Origin: Sedimentimonas flavescens
GTDB taxonomy: Bacteria > Pseudomonadota > Alphaproteobacteria > Rhodobacterales > Rhodobacteraceae
Assembly (NCBI RefSeq): GCF_019264375.1
Contig: NZ_JAHVAI010000001.1
Location: 248,001-312,000 of the forward strand
DNA: 64,000 nt
Direction of reading: 5' to 3'
A program made the translations under genes and the position numbers. This document shows, piece after piece, positions 39,766 through 49,993 of this stretch. Below the pieces are notes generated by a model, which was not told where the DNA came from, searched no databases, and worked only from the letters and a program-made list of their open reading frames with translations. How positions within the stretch are numbered: the stretch's first letter is position 1; each line of letters starts with the position of its first letter.

Positions 39766-40713
39766 ATGTCCACTGACCGCAATCCCGGCGTGCCGCTCGA
39801 CCTGTCCTGGTTCGACCGGATCGCCGTCAATACCCCCGCGACCGAGGCGCGCGCGGCGCAGCTGACCACGCGCCGCAGCCTGAAAAAGAACTATCAGGCC
39901 GCCTGGCTCGTGAACGCGATCCACTGCATGGACCTGACGACGCTGGCGGGCGACGATACCGAGGACCGCGTCGCACGGCTCTGCGCCAAGGCGCGTGCGC
40001 CGCTGGCCGATCATATCCTTGCCGGGCTTGGTCTTGATGGCGTGACGACCGGCGCGGTCTGCGTCTATCCGACCATGGTCGCCGCCGCCGTGCGCGCGCT
40101 GGAGGGCACTTCGATCCCCGTGGCCTCGGTCGCTACCGGTTTTCCCGCCGGGCTAATGCCGCTCGACCTGCGGCTGGCCGAAATCCGCTATGCCGTCGAT
40201 CAGGGCGCGCAGGAGATCGACATCGTCATCACCCGCGCCCATGTGCTACGCGCCGACTGGCAGGCGCTCTATGACGAAATCGCCGCCATGCGCGAGGCCT
40301 GCGGGGCCGCGCATATGAAGGCGATCCTTGCAACGGGCGATCTGAAGACGCTGCGCAATGTCTACAAGGCCTCGATGGTGGCGATGCAGGCGGGGGCGGA
40401 TTTCATCAAGACCTCGACCGGCAAGGAAGGCGTCAACGCCACCCTGCCCGTCAGCCTGACCATGGTGCGCGCGCTGCGCGACTATGGCGCGCGCACGGGC
40501 TACCGGATCGGCTTCAAGCCCGCAGGCGGCATGAAGACCGCCAAGGACGCGCTGGCCTGGCAGATCCTCATGAAAGAGGAGATGGGCACCGACTGGCTGC
40601 GCCCCGACCTCTTCCGCCTTGGTGCCTCGTCCATGCTGGCCGACATTGAACGCCAGCTCGAACACCATGTCACCGGGCGCTACGCGTCCTCGTCCCGCCA
40701 CGCGATCGCCTGA
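39766..40713 (+). CDS. deoC: Deoxyribose-phosphate aldolase
   Basis: Cleaves deoxyribose 5-phosphate to glyceraldehyde 3-phosphate and acetaldehyde. At 315 residues it is the longer DeoC type. Class I aldolase marks: the Schiff-base lysine in ADFIKTSTGKEG (about residue 227), the second lysine in RIGFKPAGGMKTA, and MKAILATGDL. It lies 7 bases before the aldehyde dehydrogenase gene, so acetaldehyde from the aldolase could pass to it. The rest of the deo pathway (cdd-deoA-deoB) is at 3-6 kb. Confidence 0.95.
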   Translation: MSTDRNPGVPLDLSWFDRIAVNTPATEARAAQLTTRRSLKKNYQAAWLVNAIHCMDLTTLAGDDTEDRVARLCAKARAPLADHILAGLGLDGVTTGAVCVYPTMVAAAVRALEGTSIPVASVATGFPAGLMPLDLRLAEIRYAVDQGAQEIDIVITRAHVLRADWQALYDEIAAMREACGAAHMKAILATGDLKTLRNVYKASMVAMQAGADFIKTSTGKEGVNATLPVSLTMVRALRDYGARTGYRIGFKPAGGMKTAKDALAWQILMKEEMGTDWLRPDLFRLGASSMLADIERQLEHHVTGRYASSSRHAIA

Positions 40714-40720
40714 GGGAAAG

Positions 40721-43060
40721 ATGCCGACCGTGAAAGAGATCCTCGAGACCATGGACTACGGCCCCGCCCCAGAAGCCAGCGGCGAAGTGACCGCCTGGCT
40801 GGCCGCGCGCGGGCGCTTTGGCCATTTCATCAACGGTGCCTTCACCAAGCCGGGCGAGACCTTCGCCGCCGACAATCCGGCGACGGGCGAGCCTTTGGCC
40901 GAGGTCACGCAGGGCACCGAGGATGACATCACCGCCGCCGTGAAAGCCGCGCGCAAGGCATTGCCGAAATGGGCGGGCCTGAGCGGGCATGAGCGCGCGC
41001 AGTGGCTTTACGCCATCGCCCGCCACCTGCAAAAGCGCGAGCGCTTCCTGTCGGTGCTCGAAACCCTCGACAACGGCAAGCCGATCCGCGAGAGCCGCGA
41101 TGTGGATGTGCCGCTGGCGATCCGCCACTTCTACCATCACGCCGGTTGGGCCGAACTGATCGAGGACGAGTTCCCCGGCCACGCCCCGCACGGCGTCTGC
41201 GGCCAGATCATCCCGTGGAACTTCCCGCTCTTGATGCTGGCCTGGAAGGTCGCGCCAGCGCTTGCCGCCGGGAATACGGTGGTGCTCAAACCCGCGGAGT
41301 ATACCCCCCTGACTGCGCTGGCCTTCGCCGAGATCTGCGCCGAGGTCGGCCTGCCCAAGGGCGTGGTGAATATCGTCACCGGAGACGGGCGCACAGGTGC
41401 GGCCCTGGTCGCGGCCGAAGTCGACAAGATCGCCTTCACCGGCTCGACCGAGGTTGGCCGCCTCATCCGCCGCGCCACGGCGGGCAGCGGTAAGGCGCTG
41501 ACACTGGAACTCGGCGGCAAGTCGCCCTTCATCGTCTTCGCCGACGCCGATCTGGATGCGGCGGTCGAGGGCGTGGTGGATGCGATCTGGTTCAACCAGG
41601 GCCAGGTCTGCTGCGCCGGGTCGCGCATTCTGGCCGCCGAATCTGTGGCTGAGGATTTCACCCGCCGCCTGACCGCGCGGCTGGCCAAGCTGCGCGTTGG
41701 CGAGCCACTCGACAAATGCACCGACATGGGCGCGATCGTGCATCCGGTGCAACTGGCCCGCATCCATGACCTCATCAGCGCGGGTGAGGCTGCAGGCGCG
41801 CGCCTGATCCAGGCCGAGTGCCAACTGCCCCCCAAGGGCAGCTTCTACGCGCCGGGCATCCTATTGGACGCGCACCCCGCCAACCCGGCGATGGTCGAGG
41901 AAATCTTCGGCCCGGTCGCCACGCTTTCGACCTTCCGCACGCCGGATGAGGCGGTGGAACTGGCCAATAACACGCGCTACGGCCTATCGGCCTCGATCTG
42001 GTCCGAGAACCTGACGCTGGCGATGGACATCGCCACCAAGGTCAAGGCCGGGGTCGTGTGGATCAACGCAACCAACGTCTTCGATGCCGCCGCAGGCTTT
42101 GGCGGGATGCGCGAGAGCGGCTTTGGCCGCGAAGGCGGGCGCGAGGGCATGGCCGCCTACCTGCGCCGCCCGGGCCCGAAGGCGCAGCCCGAGGCGGCTG
42201 CGGGGCGACTCGATGCCGCGCCGCAGACGGGTTCCCCCGCCGCCCCCGGCATCGACCGCACCGCCAAGCTCTATATCGGCGGCAAGCAAAGCCGCCCCGA
42301 CAGCGGCTATTCCTACGCCGTCACCTACAAGGGCCGCGAGATCGGCCTGGCCCCCCTTGGCAACCGCAAGGACATCCGCAACGCGGTCGAGGCTGCGCAT
42401 AAGGCCAGCGGCTGGGGCAAGGTGACCGGCCATAATCGGGCGCAGGTGCTGTATTACATCGCTGAAAACCTCGCCGCGCGTCAGGCCGAGTTCGAGGCCC
42501 GCCTGCACGACACTGGCCACAGCCCCAAGGAGGTCGCGGCCACGATCCGCCGCGCCTTCTATTACGCGGCCTGGGCGGACAAGTTCGACGGCGCGGTAAA
42601 ATCCACCAAGACGCGCAATGTGACCGTCGCCATGAACGAACCCTGGGGCGTCATCGGCATCGCCTGCCCGGATGCGGCGCCCCTCTTGGGCTTTGCCTCG
42701 CTGGTGCTGCCCGCCATCGCGATGGGCAACCGGGTGGTGGCGATCCCCGCCGCCTCAATGCCCTTCGCCGCGACCGATCTTTACCAGGTCTTCGACACTT
42801 CGGACCTGCCGGGCGGGGTCGTGAACATCGTCACCGGCCCGCGCGACGAGTTGGCAAAGACACTGGCGCAACACGATGACGTTGCCGCGATGTGGTATTG
42901 CGGCGGCAGCGAGGGCGCCGCGATGGTCGAGGCGGAAAGCGCGGCCAATCTCAAGGCCACCTGGACGCTACCCAACCGCGACTGGAGCGCCGCGCAGGGG
43001 CGAGAGTTCCTTGACCGCGCCAGTCAGATCAAGACGATCTGGGTGCCCTACGGCGAATGA
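40721..43060 (+). CDS. Double-domain aldehyde dehydrogenase, ALDH16-like
   Basis: A 779-residue protein made of two ALDH-like halves. The first (to about 490) is a full catalytic domain: NPATGEPLAEV, IPWNFPLLMLAWKVAPALAAGN, ELGGKSPFIVF with the general-base Glu (about 262), and FNQGQVCCAGSR with the catalytic Cys (about 297). The second (about 505-779) is a shortened, degenerate ALDH fold (NEPWGVIGIACPDAAPLL) without a cysteine loop, ending soon after its GG motif. That layout fits the ALDH16 family. Inference: it oxidises the acetaldehyde made by DeoC. ATG 40721 follows GAGGGAAAG. Confidence 0.9.
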   Translation: MPTVKEILETMDYGPAPEASGEVTAWLAARGRFGHFINGAFTKPGETFAADNPATGEPLAEVTQGTEDDITAAVKAARKALPKWAGLSGHERAQWLYAIARHLQKRERFLSVLETLDNGKPIRESRDVDVPLAIRHFYHHAGWAELIEDEFPGHAPHGVCGQIIPWNFPLLMLAWKVAPALAAGNTVVLKPAEYTPLTALAFAEICAEVGLPKGVVNIVTGDGRTGAALVAAEVDKIAFTGSTEVGRLIRRATAGSGKALTLELGGKSPFIVFADADLDAAVEGVVDAIWFNQGQVCCAGSRILAAESVAEDFTRRLTARLAKLRVGEPLDKCTDMGAIVHPVQLARIHDLISAGEAAGARLIQAECQLPPKGSFYAPGILLDAHPANPAMVEEIFGPVATLSTFRTPDEAVELANNTRYGLSASIWSENLTLAMDIATKVKAGVVWINATNVFDAAAGFGGMRESGFGREGGREGMAAYLRRPGPKAQPEAAAGRLDAAPQTGSPAAPGIDRTAKLYIGGKQSRPDSGYSYAVTYKGREIGLAPLGNRKDIRNAVEAAHKASGWGKVTGHNRAQVLYYIAENLAARQAEFEARLHDTGHSPKEVAATIRRAFYYAAWADKFDGAVKSTKTRNVTVAMNEPWGVIGIACPDAAPLLGFASLVLPAIAMGNRVVAIPAASMPFAATDLYQVFDTSDLPGGVVNIVTGPRDELAKTLAQHDDVAAMWYCGGSEGAAMVEAESAANLKATWTLPNRDWSAAQGREFLDRASQIKTIWVPYGE

Positions 43061-43093: not shown

Positions 43094-43768
43094 TCATTTC
43101 CGGGGTTTGCCCGACCAGGTTCGAAGCCAATCCATGAACCGGCCCCAGACGCCCCGCGCGCGGTCCCCCGCGGCATCGGCGCGTTCCTCGACCTCGTCCC
43201 AGGCCTCGCCCACATCCTCGACCAGCGGGTCAATCGAACGTTCGCGGAACTGCCGCCAGATGGCGCGGACAGTCAGCACGATGATCAGCAGAACCACCAG
43301 CAGGAAGATATTGACCCAGGGGATGATCCGCACATCAGGCCCGGCGACCGGCTTGATCCCGACCGCATTCGGGAAGATCGAGAACAGCTGGTTACGCCAG
43401 CCGTAATGGGTGATCACAGCCCATTTCGGGCTCTCTGGCGAGGATTTCAGGTCGTCCGCCTCGGTCTGAAGGCTGGCGGTATCGAACTTGAAATAGGGCG
43501 GCCAGTTCCAGCCGGTATCCTCGTTACGATACACCATCGGCTTACCATTGGCGCGAATGGTCGAGATGAACTGCACATCGCGATTGGTCAGCGTGCTGGA
43601 CTGGTCGTCTGGATCGGACCAGAAGATCCGCGTCCAGTCGCCCAGATCCTGCCGCTCCTGATAGGTATTCACCACGCGCACGATATCATGCTGCGGCAAG
43701 GTGTAGTGCAGAAAGCCCCCGACGATCAGCGCCAGAAGCGCCCAGAATGTCCATTTGACGTATTTCAT
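43094..43768 (-). CDS. DUF1523-like membrane protein, last gene of unknown seven-gene operon
   Basis: A 224-residue protein with an N-terminal membrane helix (KYVKWTFWALLALIVGGFLHYTL), a periplasmic domain of about 120 residues (HDIVRVVNTYQERQDLGDW, SDPDDQSSTLTNRDVQFISTI, NEDTGWNWPPYFKFD), a second membrane helix (IPWVNIFLLVVLLIIVLTVRAIW) and a charged cytoplasmic tail with EVEERADAAGDRARG. The NTYQER and RDVQFI blocks match my recollection of DUF1523, of unknown role. ATG 43768 is preferred to the adjacent GTG. It follows the upstream gene by 7 bases. The domain outside and tail inside suggest a link between envelope and the cytoplasmic AAA+ machinery of this operon. Confidence 0.8.
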   Translation of the reverse strand: MKYVKWTFWALLALIVGGFLHYTLPQHDIVRVVNTYQERQDLGDWTRIFWSDPDDQSSTLTNRDVQFISTIRANGKPMVYRNEDTGWNWPPYFKFDTASLQTEADDLKSSPESPKWAVITHYGWRNQLFSIFPNAVGIKPVAGPDVRIIPWVNIFLLVVLLIIVLTVRAIWRQFRERSIDPLVEDVGEAWDEVEERADAAGDRARGVWGRFMDWLRTWSGKPRK

Positions 43769-43775
43769 CACGGCC

Positions 43776-44054
43776 TCACGCGTAATTCACCAGATAGATC
43801 AGCACGCCCACGACCACCGCGGGCAGCACCAGCACCAGCCAGATCAGCTTGCGCCGCAGGCTGCGCTCATATTCGGCCATCCCCTCTTCGATAAAGAGAT
43901 CGCGGCCTTCGGGCGTGGCACCCACGGGCGGGTCCGCATCCCATTCCTTTTCCAGCGCCTCGCGGCGCAACGAGCGCGAATAGATCAGCAACACCCAATA
44001 GGCCACCGCCGCACCCACTGCCCCGAGAATTGCAAGCCTCAGAAAACCGATCAT
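43776..44054 (-). CDS. Small two-helix membrane protein of the unknown operon
   Basis: A 92-residue protein: helix 1 (FLRLAILGAVGAAVAYWVLLIYS), a charged loop of about 45 residues (SLRREALEKEWDADPPVGATPEGRDLFIEEGMAEYERSLRRK), helix 2 (LIWLVLVLPAVVVGVLIYLV) and the end NYA. Positive charges next to both helices place the loop in the cytoplasm. The ATG overlaps the upstream gene's stop by four bases (ATGA), implying translational coupling. I know no named family. Confidence 0.78.
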   Translation of the reverse strand: MIGFLRLAILGAVGAAVAYWVLLIYSRSLRREALEKEWDADPPVGATPEGRDLFIEEGMAEYERSLRRKLIWLVLVLPAVVVGVLIYLVNYA

Positions 44055-45442
44055 CGCCGACCTCGCAACACAGCGCCCCAGGGCCCGACCAGATCGACCG
44101 CGTCACGCGGGCTTGGCGCCTTGGGCGGCACGGGCGCGGCATCCCAGGGGCCGGGAGCAGGGAGATCCTCCATGCCCGGCTCCGCGCCGAAGAGCGCCCG
44201 GCGCGCGCCCGCCTTGTCGATCTGATACTCCCTTTCCAGAAAATCCGCCACATAGGCCTTCTTGGCCTCGGGCCAAGTCGCATAGAGACGGTAGAACAGC
44301 TCCTTGTGGCAGATGAACATCTGCCGCACGTCCAGCGGGCAAAGCTCGGCCAGCAACATGTTGACCAGATCACGTAGCGGTCCCTGCGCGGCGCGCAGTG
44401 TGTAGAAATAGGCCGGGTGGCGGCTGTCGATCCGGGGCCAGGGGCCGCCCGCCTCAAGCCAGCGCAAGATGGCGGCCAGCGCCTGAAATTCCTCGGGCAG
44501 GGCCGAGCCCAGATGCTGCGCGATCGCGCGCAACTCGCGGCGAGAGCCGCTGCCGGCATCAAGACCAAGGCGGCTGGCCGCCTCGACCAGAATGAAGTCC
44601 ATCTTCTGGCGCAGGATCGCCCCCGCATCCGCCCCGCGCGCCCGAACGATCGGCTCGACCAGCGCGTTCATTTCCAGGAACTTCGCGATCTCGTTGCGCT
44701 GCTCATGCGCGAAGACATAGTCGATGGGCAGCGCCCCAAGCGCGATCCGGTCGCCCATGGCAATCGCCGCCGGATGCGGAACCGAGCGAAAGATGTAGAG
44801 CCCGCCAAAATGCGCCGTCCAGAAATCGGGCGTCTCGAAACTTGTGGCGCGCAGCGCGACCGGATTGCGGGTGACATCGCCGGTCCGCTCGGCCAGCCCG
44901 ATCATCTCAGAGATCAGCGCATCGTCATACCAGCCCTCGGGATCCGTCCGAAACCGTGTGATCAGCCCCGAGAGTTTCTCGGATTCAGCCACATGATTGC
45001 CGGTGGTGTCGGCCACCACGGTAATGCGCTGAATGTCGAAGAGACGCACAGCCGAGCCAAGCTCATAGACCGTGTCCTCAAGCTCGCCCACCACCGCATC
45101 GCGGGCGGTCAGGCTGAACAGCTGCTCCTCGTTTTCTTCGATGAACCGGCGCAGGATGGAGCGCGACATCGAGAACTTGGCATTCAGCAACGGAGCCGAT
45201 TTCTGCTCGGTCGAGAGCAGGATGAACTGCCGGTTGCAACCGTTCGGGTTGAGATACAGGTGATCGCCAAGCTCTTCGCCGATCTCGGGCGAATAGCCCG
45301 ACAGGTCGATGTGAAACTCGGTCAGGGCGGTTTCCTTGCGCGCAAGCTGGCGCAGGCCGCGGTTATACCGCTCGACCAGCGCCGGGCTGTCCACCCGCAC
45401 CAGATTGCCGAACATCAGCCCCTTTTCGATCAGACGTTTCAT
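44051..45442 (-). CDS. Large soluble protein of the unknown operon (DUF6638-like)
   Basis: A 463-residue protein without signal peptide or membrane helix. N-terminus KRLIEKGLMFGNLVRVDSPALVERYNRGLRQLARKETALTEFHIDLSGYSPEIGEELGD; later LYLNPNGCNRQFILLS and an aromatic-rich C-terminal half (RHPAYFYTLRAAQGPLRDLVNMLLAELCPLDVRQMFICHKELFYRLYATWPEAKKAYVADFLEREYQIDKAGARRALFG). I recall this as DUF6638, but I am not certain. No enzyme motif is visible. ATG 45442 follows GGGAGCG. Its stop couples to the next gene by ATGA. Confidence 0.75.
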   Translation of the reverse strand: MKRLIEKGLMFGNLVRVDSPALVERYNRGLRQLARKETALTEFHIDLSGYSPEIGEELGDHLYLNPNGCNRQFILLSTEQKSAPLLNAKFSMSRSILRRFIEENEEQLFSLTARDAVVGELEDTVYELGSAVRLFDIQRITVVADTTGNHVAESEKLSGLITRFRTDPEGWYDDALISEMIGLAERTGDVTRNPVALRATSFETPDFWTAHFGGLYIFRSVPHPAAIAMGDRIALGALPIDYVFAHEQRNEIAKFLEMNALVEPIVRARGADAGAILRQKMDFILVEAASRLGLDAGSGSRRELRAIAQHLGSALPEEFQALAAILRWLEAGGPWPRIDSRHPAYFYTLRAAQGPLRDLVNMLLAELCPLDVRQMFICHKELFYRLYATWPEAKKAYVADFLEREYQIDKAGARRALFGAEPGMEDLPAPGPWDAAPVPPKAPSPRDAVDLVGPWGAVLRGRR

Positions 45443-45472
45443 CAACGCTCCCGATAGCTACTCAGCACCCGA

Positions 45473-45778
45473 TCACGCGCCGCGACCGGCCCAGATACCC
45501 CGACCGATCTTCGAGAGGACAGCAAAGACCACGACCGGCACAAAGCTCAGCACATACATGCCCGCGAACACCTGCTGCGGCGTGTTGCCGCTTTGGCACT
45601 GCCCGGCACCGAAGAATTCGGTCACGAACCCCAAGCCGCAATCCACCGCGGCACCGTAGAAGGCCGGAACCAGCATCCCCAGCGGCAGGATGGCCAGCAT
45701 TTTGCCCCAGGGATTGTTCGACAGCCAAAAGCCCATGGCGAGGCAGATGATCAGCCCGAAGGCCAGAAACTGGGTCAT
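45473..45778 (-). CDS. Small membrane protein of the unknown operon
   Basis: A 101-residue protein with three hydrophobic segments: FLAFGLIICLAMGFWL, MLAILPLGMLVPAFYGAAVDCG and VFAGMYVLSFVPVVVFAVLSKIG. Two cysteines (VDCG, GQC) flank a likely periplasmic loop and could form a disulfide. Its ATG overlaps the AAA+ gene's stop by four bases (ATGA), so the two are made together; a membrane anchor or substrate for the ATPase is a reasonable guess. No named family known to me. Confidence 0.75.
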   Translation of the reverse strand: MTQFLAFGLIICLAMGFWLSNNPWGKMLAILPLGMLVPAFYGAAVDCGLGFVTEFFGAGQCQSGNTPQQVFAGMYVLSFVPVVVFAVLSKIGRGIWAGRGA

Positions 45779-47709
45779 TCGCGTTCCTCCAAATAGCGCC
45801 GCTTGGCTTCCTCGGCGCGCTTCATGTCGCGCACCATGGCCTCGATCGCGACCTCGTCCGACTTGTCCGCATAGCGGAACTCGCTGTCGGCATAGCGGTT
45901 GATTTCCTGAATGACCATCTCGGCGGTAATCGGGCGGCGCAACGCTCCGATCATCGACACCTTCTCGTCATAGCTCTTGAAGAGGAAGAGATCGGGGCTC
46001 TCCATCCATTCATCGGGCAGCTCGAAATCCATCGCGCGCACTTTCACCGCATCGGTGATGTTCTTGATCGCACGCCCGGTAAAGCGCGGATCGGCCTCTT
46101 GGATCGCCTTGAGATAGGCCCCCAGTTTCTCGATCGTATCAAGCGCCCCCACCCGCGCGTTGACCTCGGCAAAGACCGCGCGCAGACCGGCCTCCTGCGG
46201 GGTGTTGTGATTGGCAAAGCTGTGGGCAACGGCCCGCTTGATCTCTTGCGCGGCGAAGAGGTCGTGATCGCCCAAGGGGATCTCGTGCCGCTTGCCCAGA
46301 AGCAGCGCGAGGATGTCGATGTAATCCGCGCGTGTCTGCGGCCCGTCCACCAGAAACCGCGCCCCGGCGCGCTGGCGCAGCGCATCGTCCACATTCTCGG
46401 GGTAGTTCGAGAACATACCGAAGGTGCAATTGCCGCGCACGACCGTGTTGGCGCCGGCAAAGGCCTCCATCAGAACGGCGGTGACCTCCTGTTGACCCGC
46501 GCTCGATTGCCGGTCGCCGCGCTTGCCCGCAATCTGGTCGATATCGTCCACCGTGCCGAAACCGATCACCGCCGGGTCCATGACATTCTGGATGAAGGCC
46601 TTGGCATTCTGCCCCGACTTGCCCTGATAGCTGTCTATATTGTCGATGCCGAAGTTCTGGTAGCGGAACGGATAGCCCGCCACCTTGCAGTAATCGTTCA
46701 GCAACCCTGCCATCATCTGGATGAGCGTGGTCTTGCCCGTGCCGGGTTTGCCATCCCCCATAAAGGTGAAGATGAAGCCCCCAAGCTCGGCGAAGGGGTT
46801 GAGCTTGCGCTCGAAATCATAGGCCATCAGCATCTTGGCCAGCCGCATCGCCTGATACTTGGCGATGTGGTTGCCGACGACCTCCTCGGGCTTCTTGAAC
46901 TGCATCACGAGGCTAGAGCCCCGCGCCTTGCGCGAAGGCGCAAAACCGGCAATCGGCAGATCGTCAGCCTCGACGCGCCAGGCCGCCCCGGTGAAGGCAC
47001 CGATCCGCGGCGCATTCTCGCCACGCAGTCGAACCTTGGCACTCAACGCCTCGACAAAGGCAAGAACTGTGGCGATCAGCGCGCCCTCGTCGGTTGCATG
47101 CAGGGCGATGTCCTGATCCAGTTCCCACAGCGCGCCATGCAGCGCAAGCGGAGCATTGTCGGTCAGCACCTCCTCAACCTCGCCGATCTCGACGGATTGC
47201 TCCCCGGCCTGCGGCCCCAACAGAAACCCGGTGGCATTGGCAAAGACCGACAGCACCGCCAGCGCCTCCGCCCCCAGCAACTCGGTAAATTCCGCGCGGC
47301 GTGCCTCGGGCAGTCGCCCCTCCAGATTGGCTTTCTTCAACTCGACAAGGCCGCTCACCTCCGAGACCGCCTCGCCCATGGCAAGCGCAATCGCCAGCCC
47401 TCGGCGCAACGCCTGCAAGACCGCCGCCTGCGCTGGCGTCGGCAGATCGTCGCCGCCGACCGCCTGCACCCGCTCGGTCAAGCGCACCCCTTCGGCCCGC
47501 ACGGTCGCGCGCGTCACCAATCCCGGCGTGGTCGAACGAAACCGCCGCCCCGTCCCCGTCACGCCGGGCGAGCGCTCAACCGGCGCCACCTCCCGCGCCT
47601 GAGCCAGGCGCGGCGCATGGTCAAGCCCCACCAGCAGCGCCGAGGCCGCCCCGTAATGCGCCCGGATCGCCTCTTCCCGAAGCTCCATCTCATCGCGCAT
47701 CCCGCTCAT
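45775..47709 (-). CDS. AAA+ ATPase, core of the unknown operon
   Basis: A 644-residue protein. Residues 1-300 form a non-catalytic, mostly helical domain with no motif I know; 301-560 is an AAA+ module: Walker A GKPGTGKT (320-327), Walker B-like VIGFGTVDDID (381-391), sensor 1 region FGMFSNYPENVDDALRQR (Asn435, arginine-finger candidates 445-451) and sensor 2 FTGRAIKNI (543-551). The C-terminal 80 residues end in a highly charged helix (MVRDMKRAEEAKRRYLEERE). All catalytic residues look intact. Order of motifs resembles classic AAA (CDC48/FtsH/Bcs1) more than MoxR. The gene before it ends 86 bases upstream, with a repeat element between. Presumably it remodels a partner encoded in the operon. 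Confidence 0.85.
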   Translation of the reverse strand: MSGMRDEMELREEAIRAHYGAASALLVGLDHAPRLAQAREVAPVERSPGVTGTGRRFRSTTPGLVTRATVRAEGVRLTERVQAVGGDDLPTPAQAAVLQALRRGLAIALAMGEAVSEVSGLVELKKANLEGRLPEARRAEFTELLGAEALAVLSVFANATGFLLGPQAGEQSVEIGEVEEVLTDNAPLALHGALWELDQDIALHATDEGALIATVLAFVEALSAKVRLRGENAPRIGAFTGAAWRVEADDLPIAGFAPSRKARGSSLVMQFKKPEEVVGNHIAKYQAMRLAKMLMAYDFERKLNPFAELGGFIFTFMGDGKPGTGKTTLIQMMAGLLNDYCKVAGYPFRYQNFGIDNIDSYQGKSGQNAKAFIQNVMDPAVIGFGTVDDIDQIAGKRGDRQSSAGQQEVTAVLMEAFAGANTVVRGNCTFGMFSNYPENVDDALRQRAGARFLVDGPQTRADYIDILALLLGKRHEIPLGDHDLFAAQEIKRAVAHSFANHNTPQEAGLRAVFAEVNARVGALDTIEKLGAYLKAIQEADPRFTGRAIKNITDAVKVRAMDFELPDEWMESPDLFLFKSYDEKVSMIGALRRPITAEMVIQEINRYADSEFRYADKSDEVAIEAMVRDMKRAEEAKRRYLEERE

Positions 47710-47724
47710 CCCACTCTATCCTTT

Positions 47725-47784
47725 CAACGTGGCCGAAATATCCCGGGGGTGAGGGCCGCGAGGCCCGAGGGGGCAGCGCCCCCT
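47725..47784 (+). repeat. Intergenic repeat, copy A
   Basis: Core AAATATCCCGGGGGTGA (47736-47752), then the hairpin AGGGGGC-AGC-GCCCCCT (47768-47784). The hairpin is identical to that of copy B at 51.4 kb. It fills the gap inside the unknown operon, between the AAA+ start and the preceding gene's stop. Confidence 0.75.
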
Positions 47785-47794
47785 TTCCCGGGCC

Positions 47795-48916
47795 TCAGCC
47801 GTAAACCATCACCCGGTCGCCCGCGCCGACCACGAACTTGCGCACATCCCGAAACCCCGGCGGATCTTTCTCGGCCAGCACCTGGAACGGCCGCTGTGGC
47901 AGGATCAGCGCACGGCGCAACCGCGTCGCCCCATGATCCTCCCCCACCCCCGAGAACGGATCGAGCCGGAACACCTGCCGCTCGGTCTCGCTGAACCAGC
48001 CCTTCTCGACCTCAACCCGCTCGGCCTCCAGCTCCTCGATGGCCCAGGCCAGCGCCCAGTCCTCGCCTGCGGGCGCGCGGGCATCTTCCAGCACCTCCCG
48101 GATCGGCCCGCTCTGCAAGGTATAGGCCGAGGAATACATCGGCCCCAGATGCATCCGGCGCAGCCCCTTGGGATGCAGATCGCCGAAATCGGCATCAAAG
48201 CCCTTGGCAATGGTGATCAGCTTCAACCCGCCCACCGACTGCGCCATCAGATGCGCGCGCACCTGCTCCCACCGGCCAATGTCCTTGGGCAGGGCGGTGC
48301 GGCCGCTATCCTCGACATCAAGAATATAGACCACCGGCACATTAAGCTGGCTGTCATAAACCGCCCAATGCAGCTTGTAGGCGCGCCGCCCGCGCGGCAG
48401 ATCGCCCCGCCACTCGGCCACCGGATGCATCTGCGCCCAGAACTGCCCCCTCGCTGCCAGCGCCTCGTAGTAAAGCCGCTGGCTCAGGGCGAATTGCAGA
48501 TCGGTCGGCACGGCGCGCTCACCCACGATGCGGCGCACCATGCGATCCTTCAGATCCTCGACCCCGGCCATACCCGTCAGCGTCCCGGCAGCCTGCGCTG
48601 CGTCATTGGCCATCGAGACCAGTTCCTGAAAGATCGGAAAGCCGCTCTCATGCAGGTCAATCGTCAGGTGCCGCCGCGCGGGCCCGACAATCCGGCCCGC
48701 GATCAGGTATTTCAGCGAAAGCGCCCGGAACGTCGCTGCCACCGCCTCGGCATAGCCCGCAAGGATCGCCGTATCCGAACCCGGCAACTCCCCCTCCATC
48801 TGCCGAGCCACACCCGACATGATCCGGGTGATCCGCTCGAACTTGGCAAAGTAGCGCCGGGCGGCGAATTCGTCCTTCAGGACGTGATGATCGTTGGTCA
48901 GATCGGTCTTGGGCAC
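47795..48916 (-). CDS. Soluble protein of the unknown operon, family not recognised
   Basis: A 373-residue protein, no signal peptide, no membrane helix. Starts KTDLTNDHHVLKDEFAARRYFAKFERITRIMSGVARQMEG; a helical first half, then a mixed alpha/beta part with AEWRGDLPRGRRAYKLHWAVYDSQLNVPVVYILDVEDSGR, possibly a beta-sandwich or PIN-like fold, and KGLRRMHLGPMYSSAYTLQ. I could not assign it; a DUF6384-type label is a guess. GTG 48916 directly abuts the TAA of the coiled-coil gene, so both are surely translated from the same message. Second gene of the operon. Confidence 0.72.
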   Translation of the reverse strand: MPKTDLTNDHHVLKDEFAARRYFAKFERITRIMSGVARQMEGELPGSDTAILAGYAEAVAATFRALSLKYLIAGRIVGPARRHLTIDLHESGFPIFQELVSMANDAAQAAGTLTGMAGVEDLKDRMVRRIVGERAVPTDLQFALSQRLYYEALAARGQFWAQMHPVAEWRGDLPRGRRAYKLHWAVYDSQLNVPVVYILDVEDSGRTALPKDIGRWEQVRAHLMAQSVGGLKLITIAKGFDADFGDLHPKGLRRMHLGPMYSSAYTLQSGPIREVLEDARAPAGEDWALAWAIEELEAERVEVEKGWFSETERQVFRLDPFSGVGEDHGATRLRRALILPQRPFQVLAEKDPPGFRDVRKFVVGAGDRVMVYG

Positions 48917-49993
48917 TTAGCCACCGTAGAGGTTCTTGTCGTGTTTCTCGACAATCTCGGCGAAACGACGGGCGAACCGCTCGTCTGCCTTCGCCTTCTG
49001 CTCCAGCACCTTTCGGGCAAAGACCATATGGCCCTCATGCGCCTCCAGCATCTCGGCCATCTTCGAATTGGTCGCGGCGCCAATCCCGGCCATGGCGGTC
49101 TGCGCCTCCTGATCGGTCTGCACACCGATCTCATTGATCCGGTGCGCGATGTCCTGCTGCTGCGCGGTCTTGAGCGACTTGGTCAGCGCATCGTACAGCA
49201 CCACGCGCTGCTGCGTGTCGGTGGCCAACTTGTTGATCAGCACCATCTGCGTGGCCGCCTGGTTGGTCAGGCTGTCCACCCAGGTCTTGCCCTTCTCGAT
49301 ATAGCGCTCCAGCGTCTGCGACTTGGCCAGTTTGACCTGCTCGTCCTGCACCATGGCATTGTAGCGCTGGTTCAAAGCAGCCAGCTCGGTCTCCAGCCGG
49401 GTGCGCGCCGCCGCGTCCTGCTCGACCGAGATCTTGTTCTCCAACTCGATGATTTTCGGGTCAATCGCCAGAATCTCGGCGCGCACGGTCTCCAGATCGG
49501 CCACGGTGGTTTCGCGATCCGCCAGCGTTGCCGACAGATTGGTCTCGACCTTGCCCTTCTGATCGTTCAGCACCGCCAGCTGCCCTTCAAGCAACTTGAC
49601 GATCGTGTCGGACTTGGCGATCAGGTCCTGCAGTTTCGCGTCGATCGAGGCCGCCCGCAAACGCTCTGCCCGCATCGCCTCGGATTTCTGCCGGGCGAAC
49701 ATACCGACAAAGCTCTCCCAGCCGGTCTTGGTGCGCAACTCCTCAAAATCGCGCGAGAAACCGGCCGTCACATCGTCGAGCCCCATGATCAGTTCGGCGA
49801 TATTGGCGTTCATCGCATCGGCATGGGCCTGCACATCCGCCAGCGTCGCGTTCTCGATATCCAGCGCAAACTGCTCACCCGCGTCGGCCTTGGCTTTCGC
49901 CGCCTCGATCCGCGTGGTCATCTCGGTAATGCGCGCCTGCGCCTCCGCCACCTGCTTCTGGCTTTGCTGAATCTGCGCGTCGAAACCGGCCAT
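48917..49993 (-). CDS. Coiled-coil protein, first gene of the unknown operon
   Basis: A 358-residue, almost entirely helical protein. Coiled coil is likely at about 5-40 (QIQQSQKQVAEAQARITEM) and again from about 115 to 235 (LLEGQLAVLNDQKGKVETNL, IELENKISVEQDAAARTRLETELAALNQRY). The SQTLERYIEKGKTWVDSL stretch has a faint likeness to TelA/KlaA toxic-anion-resistance proteins, and the general form also recalls PspA/ESCRT-III-like proteins; neither is established. ATG 49993 has a strong GGAGGG site. The promoter must lie in 49994-50141. AAA+ partners commonly remodel such filament formers, which is why the pairing is notable. Confidence 0.75.
   Translation of the reverse strand: MAGFDAQIQQSQKQVAEAQARITEMTTRIEAAKAKADAGEQFALDIENATLADVQAHADAMNANIAELIMGLDDVTAGFSRDFEELRTKTGWESFVGMFARQKSEAMRAERLRAASIDAKLQDLIAKSDTIVKLLEGQLAVLNDQKGKVETNLSATLADRETTVADLETVRAEILAIDPKIIELENKISVEQDAAARTRLETELAALNQRYNAMVQDEQVKLAKSQTLERYIEKGKTWVDSLTNQAATQMVLINKLATDTQQRVVLYDALTKSLKTAQQQDIAHRINEIGVQTDQEAQTAMAGIGAATNSKMAEMLEAHEGHMVFARKVLEQKAKADERFARRFAEIVEKHDKNLYGG

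Follow-up and report, generated by a model that had tools for sequence, protein, structure and literature searches.

A conserved AAA ATPase operon with two gene-exchange slots: a putative modular conflict system

Four genes, encoding a coiled-coil protein (g1), a protein without known family (g2), an AAA ATPase (g3) and a DUF6638 protein (g5), form a fixed genetic unit, and two of its junctions, g1|g2 (slot A) and g3|g5 (slot B), hold unrelated genes in close relatives. We tentatively read the operon as a modular conflict system of putative defence type, an ATPase core with exchangeable effectors in two slots, and hold this reading at close to even probability.

A fixed core and two exchange slots

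The operon was found in a 64,000-nt stretch of the Sedimentimonas flavescens genome (hereafter the window). All seven minus-strand ORFs that a sequence-only reading had placed there are present, in the order given:

g1, 48917–49993, minus strand: 358-aa coiled-coil protein that opens the conserved core; no Pfam family over cut-off
Slot A (g1|g2 junction), 48916–48917, minus strand: vacant in the window, the g1 stop abutting the g2 start
g2, 47795–48916, minus strand: 373-aa core protein without known family
g3, 45775–47709, minus strand: 644-aa AAA ATPase of the conserved core
Slot B, left border, 45775–45778, minus strand: ATGA shared by the g3 stop and g4 start; 31 of 61 loci have this −4 offset at slot B
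g4, 45473–45778, minus strand: 101-aa membrane protein with three hydrophobic stretches by eye; slot B occupant in the window
g5, 44051–45442, minus strand: 463-aa DUF6638 protein of the conserved core
g6, 43776–44054, minus strand: 92-aa small membrane protein; ATGA overlap with g5
g7, 43094–43768, minus strand: 224-aa DUF1523 membrane protein

The junctions are likewise as first described: the g1 TAA immediately adjoins the g2 GTG, and g3/g4 and g5/g6 overlap as ATGA. We took ATG as the start of both g5 and g7; the ORF list begins each 3 bases upstream, at TTG and GTG, respectively. Pfam-type family scans bore out the DUF6638-like and DUF1523-like calls (704 bits for g5 and 247 bits for g7). 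Across Pfam, NCBIfam, PADLOC and PHROGs, the seven proteins returned only these two families, the AAA domain and weak sub-threshold matches, with no family over cut-off for g2 or g4. Promoter and terminator scans gave chance-level results.

The core order g1-g2-g3-g5 is complete in 75 of 80 loci of a scan with one genome per species; four of the five incomplete loci are cut at contig ends and one is a real exception. These loci are the top 80 among at least 520 relatives when ordered by likeness to a Vibrio g3, which makes the sample biased, and their lineages follow record titles and customary genus placement. The order is also complete in all 14 loci of a phylum sample, and Vibrio megaplasmids carry it as well. 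Its recurrence in many Alphaproteobacteria and in Vibrio records is far beyond chance. The expectation that the genes would keep company in the same order held for g1, g2, g3 and g5, with two real exceptions overall (L058 and L115), but failed for g4. Both g6 and g7 occur in 26 of 26 complete family operons, and g7 was not found in the Rhizobiaceae loci of the 14-locus phylum sample. The operon is patchy in the family (29 of 61 genomes) and in the window's genus (8 of 18). Two origins were considered and rejected: phage, as g3 matched no record of the phage collection, and plasmid, as the 10 matching plasmid records (0.88 to 4.6 Mb) were every one typed non-mobilizable.

Slot B holds unrelated genes even in close relatives. 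Among 90 locus pairs whose g3 is at least 90% identical, drawn from the 59 loci having a slot ORF, 80 have no slot B ORF in common. In 78 pairs from 13 Ruegeria-type loci, slot B DNA is alike over half its length in a single pair. By the same criterion all 78 pairs match in a downstream control, 63 at the g2|g3 junction and 45 in an upstream control. Cargo is packed tightly between its neighbours, often through RTGA overlaps: 31 of 61 slot loci show an overlap of exactly 4 nt between cargo stop and g5 start, as do 15 of 32 in a second set sharing three genomes with the first. Part of the −4 signal at the left border follows from the sequence itself, as g3 frequently ends in GGG-TGA and thereby supplies a GTG; no such bias affects the right border. 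At slot A, where the g1|g2 gap reaches 180 nt or more, 39 of 40 loci contain an ORF of at least 60 aa.

The window's g4 is an occupant of this exchangeable slot and not a constant part of the operon, and the earlier description of a seven-gene operon is not supported as it stood. A g4 profile built from two sequences matched nothing in the 80 loci of the one-genome-per-species scan. Among the 8 loci of the window's genus with g3 and g5, six have a g4-type gene, one has another gene and one is vacant. Within this genus g4 is mostly inherited, not swapped, which counts against the conflict reading; with vacant, g4-type and replaced slots in one genus, the relation of core to cargo is directly testable there.

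Recombination at the slots in Ruegeria

Neither the two exchange slots nor the signature described here is visible from a single genome. In the Ruegeria set, identity at fourfold sites of g3 and g5 is 73–89% adjoining slot B, against 45–67% farther off. In g3, g5 and g2, every one of the 78 pairs shows greater likeness in the codons nearer the slot, as do 74 of 78 in g1, and synonymous identity is highest adjoining both slots, a mark of homologous recombination. On this pattern of silent sites, slot exchange in Ruegeria is shown to run through homologous recombination in the flanking core genes.

Control windows with full coverage in flanking genes read 31–58, with one at 67. Three higher control values (95 and 68 in c16 and 93 in c20) were set aside because their windows either precede the first Met, entirely or for the most part, or are covered by few loci; the first coding windows of c20, at 67 and 52, were retained. 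The last window of Ruegeria g3, which is partial, reads only 56. A high window at around codons 560–600 of g3 recurs in Tateyamaria (86), Sulfitobacter (79), Marivita (100) and Roseovarius (71), with 65 in Mesorhizobium. The full gradient was not seen in these five genera, so that the recombination claim rests on the Ruegeria set.

Core proteins, cargo and the readings they allow

The AAA domain of g3 matches PF00004 at 48.8 bits against a cut-off of 21.2 (E 1.2e-12). Its motifs are a Walker A GDGKPGTGKT, a Walker B with D for E, a pore-loop-like SYQGKS, a sensor-1 N and SRH-like arginines. The sequence-only reading had called the motifs intact; the domain assignment stands, but Walker B reads DDID, not DEID. 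The usual catalytic glutamate position is Asp in 12 of 12 aligned g3 members, and in alignments to i-AAA and 26S subunit 10B chains this Asp faces the E of their DE. g3 shares Walker A, sensor 1, SRH arginines and an aromatic pore loop with classical AAA ATPases (the katanin/Vps4/proteasomal/i-AAA group), but lacks their Walker B glutamate.

The predicted structure of g1 is all-helical, with long helices at residues 117–190 and 194–292; that of g2 has an alpha/beta domain in blocks of mostly pLDDT 80–96, and that of g5 has a mean pLDDT of 85.9 and no confident PDB match. Foldseek against the PDB returned nothing at E ≤0.001 for g5 or g1-g2. A VIA fold search gave a best Z of only 5.2 for g5 and, with g1-g2, a tied list of coiled coils for g1 that barely probed g2.

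Could g1 belong to a characterised system? If it were a distant TelA-family protein, the operon would be a TelA/Ter-like stress system with an added AAA ATPase. Profile alignment of g1 to a broad TelA set is co-linear over 145 columns and scores 32.3, against 15.4 for the reversed set, a score reached by 1 of 180 block-shuffled sets. hhalign probabilities are just 11.7 and 16.7%, however, the latter for this 145-column alignment, and 0.3% with a narrow TelA set; g1 has no match to Pfam TelA (PF05816) up to E 1, a canonical TelA gene sits elsewhere in the same genome and the operon encodes no Ter-domain protein. A distant TelA relationship of g1 is hinted at by these alignments and unproven, and we consider the TelA-type system very unlikely.

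Still less probable, and in our view barely credible, is an ESCRT-III-like arrangement in which g3 would act as a Vps4 that disassembles membrane polymers of a PspA-like g1. Fidgetin, katanin and Vps4 are among the nearest PDB sequences to g3, but the best match is an i-AAA protease. The helical hairpin of g1 aligns to PspA 1-144 (Z 11.1, rmsd 2.1, 132 residues), a match tied with many unrelated coiled coils; a Pfam scan found no PspA_IM30 or Snf7 domain in g1, and profile comparison with PspA gave 0.7% probability.

The cargo is diverse. The 118 slot ORFs fall into 62 families, 46 of them confined to one locus, and the largest spans 17 loci. Small multi-helix membrane proteins are common. Recognisable domains include PIN, Phd, Mrr, DUF2971, DUF559 and AbiJ-type, and most cargo has none; among 85 slot ORFs scanned, conflict-type Pfam domains account for eleven assignments.

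The conflict reading would work as follows. The core, joined in Rhodobacteraceae by the membrane proteins g6 and g7, would pair with cargo at g1|g2 and chiefly at g3|g5. g3 would form an AAA ring, probably slow because its Walker B carries Asp, and would act at the membrane on the long helical g1, remodelling or threading it, while g1, g2 and g5 would provide sensing and a scaffold. On invasion or disturbance of the envelope the complex would change, and the cargo effector, be it a membrane protein, nuclease or RNase, would then be released or activated. Shifting phage pressure would favour effector swapping while the core is retained. That the operon represents an undescribed class of modular immune system, with an AAA ATPase/coiled-coil/DUF6638 sensor core, two slots and tightly coupled effectors that species exchange through homologous recombination in the flanking core, seems possible, at somewhat below even probability.

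In favour of the conflict reading stand the fixed core, the turnover and tight setting of cargo, the silent-site pattern, the conflict-type domains, the effector classes shared with BREX core operons, the g3|g5 location of the strongest matches to one cargo family and the patchy presence of the operon. Several results weigh against it, among them that the full gradient was seen in Ruegeria alone. At least 58 of the 85 scanned slot ORFs have no Pfam match at E 0.01. In PADLOC, defence-family matches of the core proteins are limited to the AAA fold and weak coiled-coil hits, and the slot set yields 22 families against 13 among 82 flank control ORFs, a poor separation. PADLOC on 75 ORFs around seven off-slot cargo copies gave ten single-member matches, which are not decisive for a defence-island context.

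Other results bear on whether core and cargo are coupled at all. The core may instead be a housekeeping envelope machine for remodelling or stress, much as the sequence-only reading proposed, whose two junctions are passive docks, giving mobile defence genes or morons nothing but co-expression, an alternative of real weight that we nonetheless find rather doubtful. In 15 of 76 loci slot B measures less than 220 nt, so cargo at this site is not needed for the core to be present, and Vibrio records have g1-g2-g3-g5 with just 48 nt separating g3 and g5. Some cargo (a Phd antitoxin, DUF433 with PIN_10, an Mrr enzyme) is seemingly self-sufficient and would not need the core. For three cargo families, relatives occur off the slot in 4 of 10, 2 of 6 and 2 of 2 genomes; in the third family, one of the two copies lies on a 4.6-kb contig. 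The envelope idea builds on the helices of the membrane proteins g6 and g7, and membrane remodelling has been proposed for PspA or Snf7 proteins with AAA ATPases, in the portion of PMC11237479 drawn on here. By contrast, exchange is focused on two junctions, with g2|g3 and the downstream flank common to most or all of the Ruegeria pairs given above; across 198 genomes, each of the six strongest matches to a 2TM coiled-coil cargo family sits in the g3|g5 slot; and the patchy core is unlike a housekeeping machine.

The frequency of small multi-helix membrane proteins in the slots, g4 among them, the spread of the largest cargo family and the tight setting of cargo between g3 and g5 would also suit an AAA chaperone or assembly line whose slot genes are lineage-specific small membrane clients or adaptors, with nuclease-type cargo incidental. 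We judge this improbable: so many families, most of them single-locus, exceed the diversity of one client type; neither soluble nucleases nor PIN and HEPN-like proteins suit it; and the fast swapping in Ruegeria is unexpected of a client.

If the conflict reading is right, with the core as sensor and the slots as its effectors, the operon is a natural library of effectors on a standard mount, and its two slots are defined sites at which to seek new toxins, membrane effectors and nucleases. DUF6638 would also gain a function; among the papers searched none was on it, and none on a variable-effector anti-phage AAA ATPase operon in Rhodobacteraceae. Should the slots prove to be no more than a dock, the operon, with its two exchange sites driven by recombination, would still be a clear case of a trade in accessory genes possibly without mobile elements.

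Comparison with known systems

CBASS has swappable effectors, and the PADLOC TRIP13 model of CBASS with TRIP13 touches the g3 AAA domain (E 4e-5), but no nucleotide cyclase or HORMA protein is among the seven. The initial judgement that the operon fits neither MoxR-VWA, Psp nor Ter systems agrees with the scans, in which no Pfam, NCBIfam or PADLOC family of those systems occurs among the seven proteins: g3 matches PF00004 with no MoxR or VWA family beside it, and no TerB, TerC or TerD domain protein is present. TelA (PF05816) resembles g1 as a long helical protein of similar size with a weak co-linear profile signal, but its family model does not recognise g1.

Operons of PspA or Snf7 with an AAA ATPase likewise combine a helical coiled-coil protein and membrane proteins with the ATPase (PMC11237479); they differ in that g1 is not recognised as PspA or Snf7 and in that g2, DUF6638 and exchange slots go without mention in the excerpts of that paper used here. 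In the corresponding excerpts of PMC5183652, the type I restriction-modification loci of Campylobacter jejuni with rlo/mlo have intervening ORFs between fixed core genes and recombination in the locus. The core here is instead an AAA ATPase and a coiled coil, with no hsdR, hsdM or hsdS among the seven.

BREX differs in its parts: none of the seven was recognised by Pfam or PADLOC as PglZ, BrxC, a methyltransferase or any other BREX protein, and the slot cargo here is mostly without known domain, with small membrane proteins common. BREX and BREX-related operons have an ATPase-containing conserved core in which auxiliary or backup effectors are embedded, often flanked by core genes, and PD-(D/E)XK, PIN and HEPN effector classes are reported within BREX core operons, in the parts of PMC12839542 consulted. 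Such embedding between core genes, here of putative effectors, is a feature of this operon too.

A conserved core and its spread

The operon occupies 43094–49993 and holds seven open reading frames (ORFs) in the arrangement that the sequence-only reading had described, all on the minus strand and listed here in operon order:

g1, coiled-coil protein, 358 aa
g2, protein of 373 aa
g3, AAA ATPase, 644 aa
g4, membrane protein, 101 aa, occupying the g3|g5 junction (slot B)
g5, DUF6638 protein, 463 aa
g6, small membrane protein, 92 aa
g7, DUF1523 membrane protein, 224 aa

Three products score over their own family cut-offs, g3 (AAA domain), g5 and g7, which bears out the earlier DUF6638-like and DUF1523-like assignments; no family passes its cut-off for g1, g2, g4 or g6. 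The closest sequences to g3 with known structure are the i-AAA protease, fidgetin, katanin, Vps4 and proteasomal ATPases, and g3 has one match in the window's genome at E 0.001. In alignments to sequences of known structure, g3 retains Walker A, the sensor-1 Asn and an aromatic residue resembling that of a pore loop, and the Walker B Glu is replaced by Asp, as in 12/12 aligned members; the earlier description of these residues as intact needs this qualification.

A predicted model of g5 (mean pLDDT 85.9) has no confident match in the PDB. The g1–g2 chain model (mean pLDDT 72.4) has long helices in g1 and a well-folded domain in g2; its fold search returned no informative match, in a list that hardly covers g2. 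A relationship of g1 to TelA is suggestive only. A canonical TelA gene lies elsewhere in the same genome, outside the window (G000:C1:145036–146028). At 39766–43060, two genes named by eye face the downstream end of the operon: one resembles deoxyribose-phosphate aldolase, and the other is a long ORF resembling aldehyde dehydrogenase.

DUF6638 is patchily distributed, being present in 29/61 genomes sampled from the window's family, 26/398 from its phylum and 2/142 in an evenly drawn sample of its class. Among the first 29 neighbourhoods (28 genomes of the family sample and one of the class sample), 26 have g1–g2–g3–g5–g6–g7 in order and two others are cut by contig ends; in one, the sole such case (L058, G163:C369), g5–g6–g7 stand without g1–g3 in ~8.9 kb upstream. 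Further loci were taken from 14 of the 26 DUF6638 genomes in the phylum sample, and a one-genome-per-species scan gave at least 520 g3 relatives, of which 80 were kept for locus analysis (Alphaproteobacteria by the genera in their titles). The proposed co-occurrence of all seven genes in order stands for the core, g1–g2–g3–g5 (14/14 and 75/80 loci, the latter with four contig-end cuts), and falls for g4, which a two-sequence profile found in 0/80. Four Rhizobiaceae-type loci of the 14 lack g7, and in the set of 80, Roseovarius sp. ZX-A-9 (L115, 7583–11920) has g1–g2–g3 truly without g5–g7 in ~10 kb downstream. In that locus, flanking gene clusters c9 and c6 directly follow g3.

Three Vibrio megaplasmids (L005, L101 and L102; 0.88–0.94 Mb) carry the core with an mfd-annotated gene after it. 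Their g3|g5 junctions are without slot cargo. In a Sinorhizobium record (L004, 2653–11517), the core is followed by DUF2333 as the last gene, and the g3|g5 junction contains an IS and a gene with an endonuclease domain. This operon is bordered by thymidine kinase and formate-THF ligase genes. Its g3 would presumably be SMc02733, going by locus tags. That tag is listed with intragenic ChvI-bound fragments in a table of PMC3687685.

Two slots and their turnover

The g3–g5 distance ranges from overlap up to 2.4 kb, and slot B spans at least 220 nt in 61/76 loci. No slot ORF is held in common in 80 of the 90 locus pairs with g3 at least 90% identical (BLASTP E 1e-4). In a Ruegeria-type set of 13 loci (12 carrying the label Ruegeria, plus the MAG L177; g3 94–97% identical), slot B DNA matches over half of the shorter slot in 1/78 pairs; by the same criterion, the g2|g3 junction, extended by 100 nt in both directions, matches in 63/78, the downstream stretch in 78/78 and the upstream stretch in 45/78. 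Homology ends at about the last g3 codons and restarts at the g5 start codon. Cargo, as we call the exchangeable slot genes, starts at −4 relative to the g3 stop in 31/61 slot loci and stops at −4 relative to the g5 start in 31/61. A second set of 40 operons (32 slots), with three genomes in common with the first, has the 4-nt overlap at the g3 stop in 13 and at the g5 start in 15.

The g1|g2 junction forms another slot: its gap is at least 180 nt in 40 loci, 39 of which contain an ORF there, and homologous ORFs occupy it in 8/78 Ruegeria pairs.

Within the window's genus, g3 is present in 8/18 genomes, and 6/8 loci with both g3 and g5 have a g4-type gene. Slot B of L280 holds a different membrane protein (122 aa), and that of L278 is empty, the g3 stop overlapping the g5 start directly as GTGA; g3 is 94% identical across this empty/occupied pair. 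As g4 is mostly inherited within the genus, fast swapping is demonstrated for Ruegeria and not for the window's genus. One genome (G580, contamination 5) has two g3 copies, L280 and L282, with g5 visible on one contig only, the other being too short.

Recombination around the slots

Across the 13 Ruegeria-type loci, fourfold-degenerate-site identity runs from 51 to 80 along g1, 83 to 52 along g2, 50 to 86 along g3 (56 in its final, partial window) and 89 to 45 along g5, and is thus highest at both slots and lower between them. It is 41–56 in g6 (12 loci) and g7 (9 loci), and 31–58 in fully covered windows of flanking genes, plus one 67 at the start of flanking cluster c20. The first coding windows of c20 give 67 and 52 vs 31–47 beyond, perhaps a further exchange point. 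Codons near a slot are more alike than far ones in 78/78 pairs for g2, g3 and g5 and in 74/78 for g1, the pairs being mutually non-independent. By estimate, GC3 shifts along the genes are too small to account for the gradient. Recurrent homologous recombination in slot-flanking core genes leaves such a pattern behind.

In other genera, identity is raised in a window close to the end of g3, but the full gradient is missing. At g3 codons ~560–600, identity is 86 in Ruegeria, 86 in Tateyamaria, 79 in Sulfitobacter, 100 in Marivita and 71 in Roseovarius. A nucleic-acid-level element might explain this window, as might a recombination point.

Cargo and a possible conflict system

The 118 slot ORFs represent 62 families, of which 46 are confined to one locus; part of the called ORFs will be spurious. 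A Pfam scan of 85 ORFs (84 slot ORFs and g4) gave 11 conflict-type assignments: DUF559, PIN and DUF2971 (2 each) and Mrr, PIN_10, Phd, AbiJ_NTD4 and DUF433 (1 each), domain types that belong to conflict systems. Many of the remaining slot ORFs are orphans or encode 2TM coiled-coil proteins or small membrane proteins with several helices. Such cargo was singly verified in L117, L120, L121, L140, L142 and L150, and L170 has a sub-threshold HEPN match. In a flank control of 82 roughly length-matched ORFs, at least 25 of the 74 Pfam families belong to ordinary metabolism or housekeeping.

Among 198 family genomes, a 2TM coiled-coil cargo family is matched ten times, with the six best matches between g3 and g5 and four weak ones at other sites. 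For a second family there are six matches, of which three are slot genes, one belongs to a broken operon and two lie outside; a 3TM family has two, neither observed in a slot and one on a 4.6-kb contig. Cargo is therefore concentrated at the slot and not exclusive to it. The broken operon (L259, G652:C173, 3304–6782; genome completeness 76) comprises a g1 fragment, A12-family cargo, a g5 fragment, g6 and g7; g2 and g3 were not found there, and the cargo gene is retained.

The slots and the exchange of their genes are demonstrated. The main rival reading, a somewhat doubtful one, is that the slot is a passive dock within an envelope machine. The operon pairs a conserved ATPase core of patchy distribution with embedded nuclease, RNase and membrane cargo, which is tightly coupled and is swapped by recombination. 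On the strength of this combination, which resembles BREX and rlo/mlo loci, we read the operon, tentatively and at close to even chances, as a modular conflict system. In such a conflict system the core would sense and would act on g1, and the cargo may serve as effectors. The likeness is to the BREX backup effectors of PMC12839542 and to the rlo/mlo ORFs in R-M loci of Campylobacter (PMC5183652); in both comparisons the core differs from the one described here.
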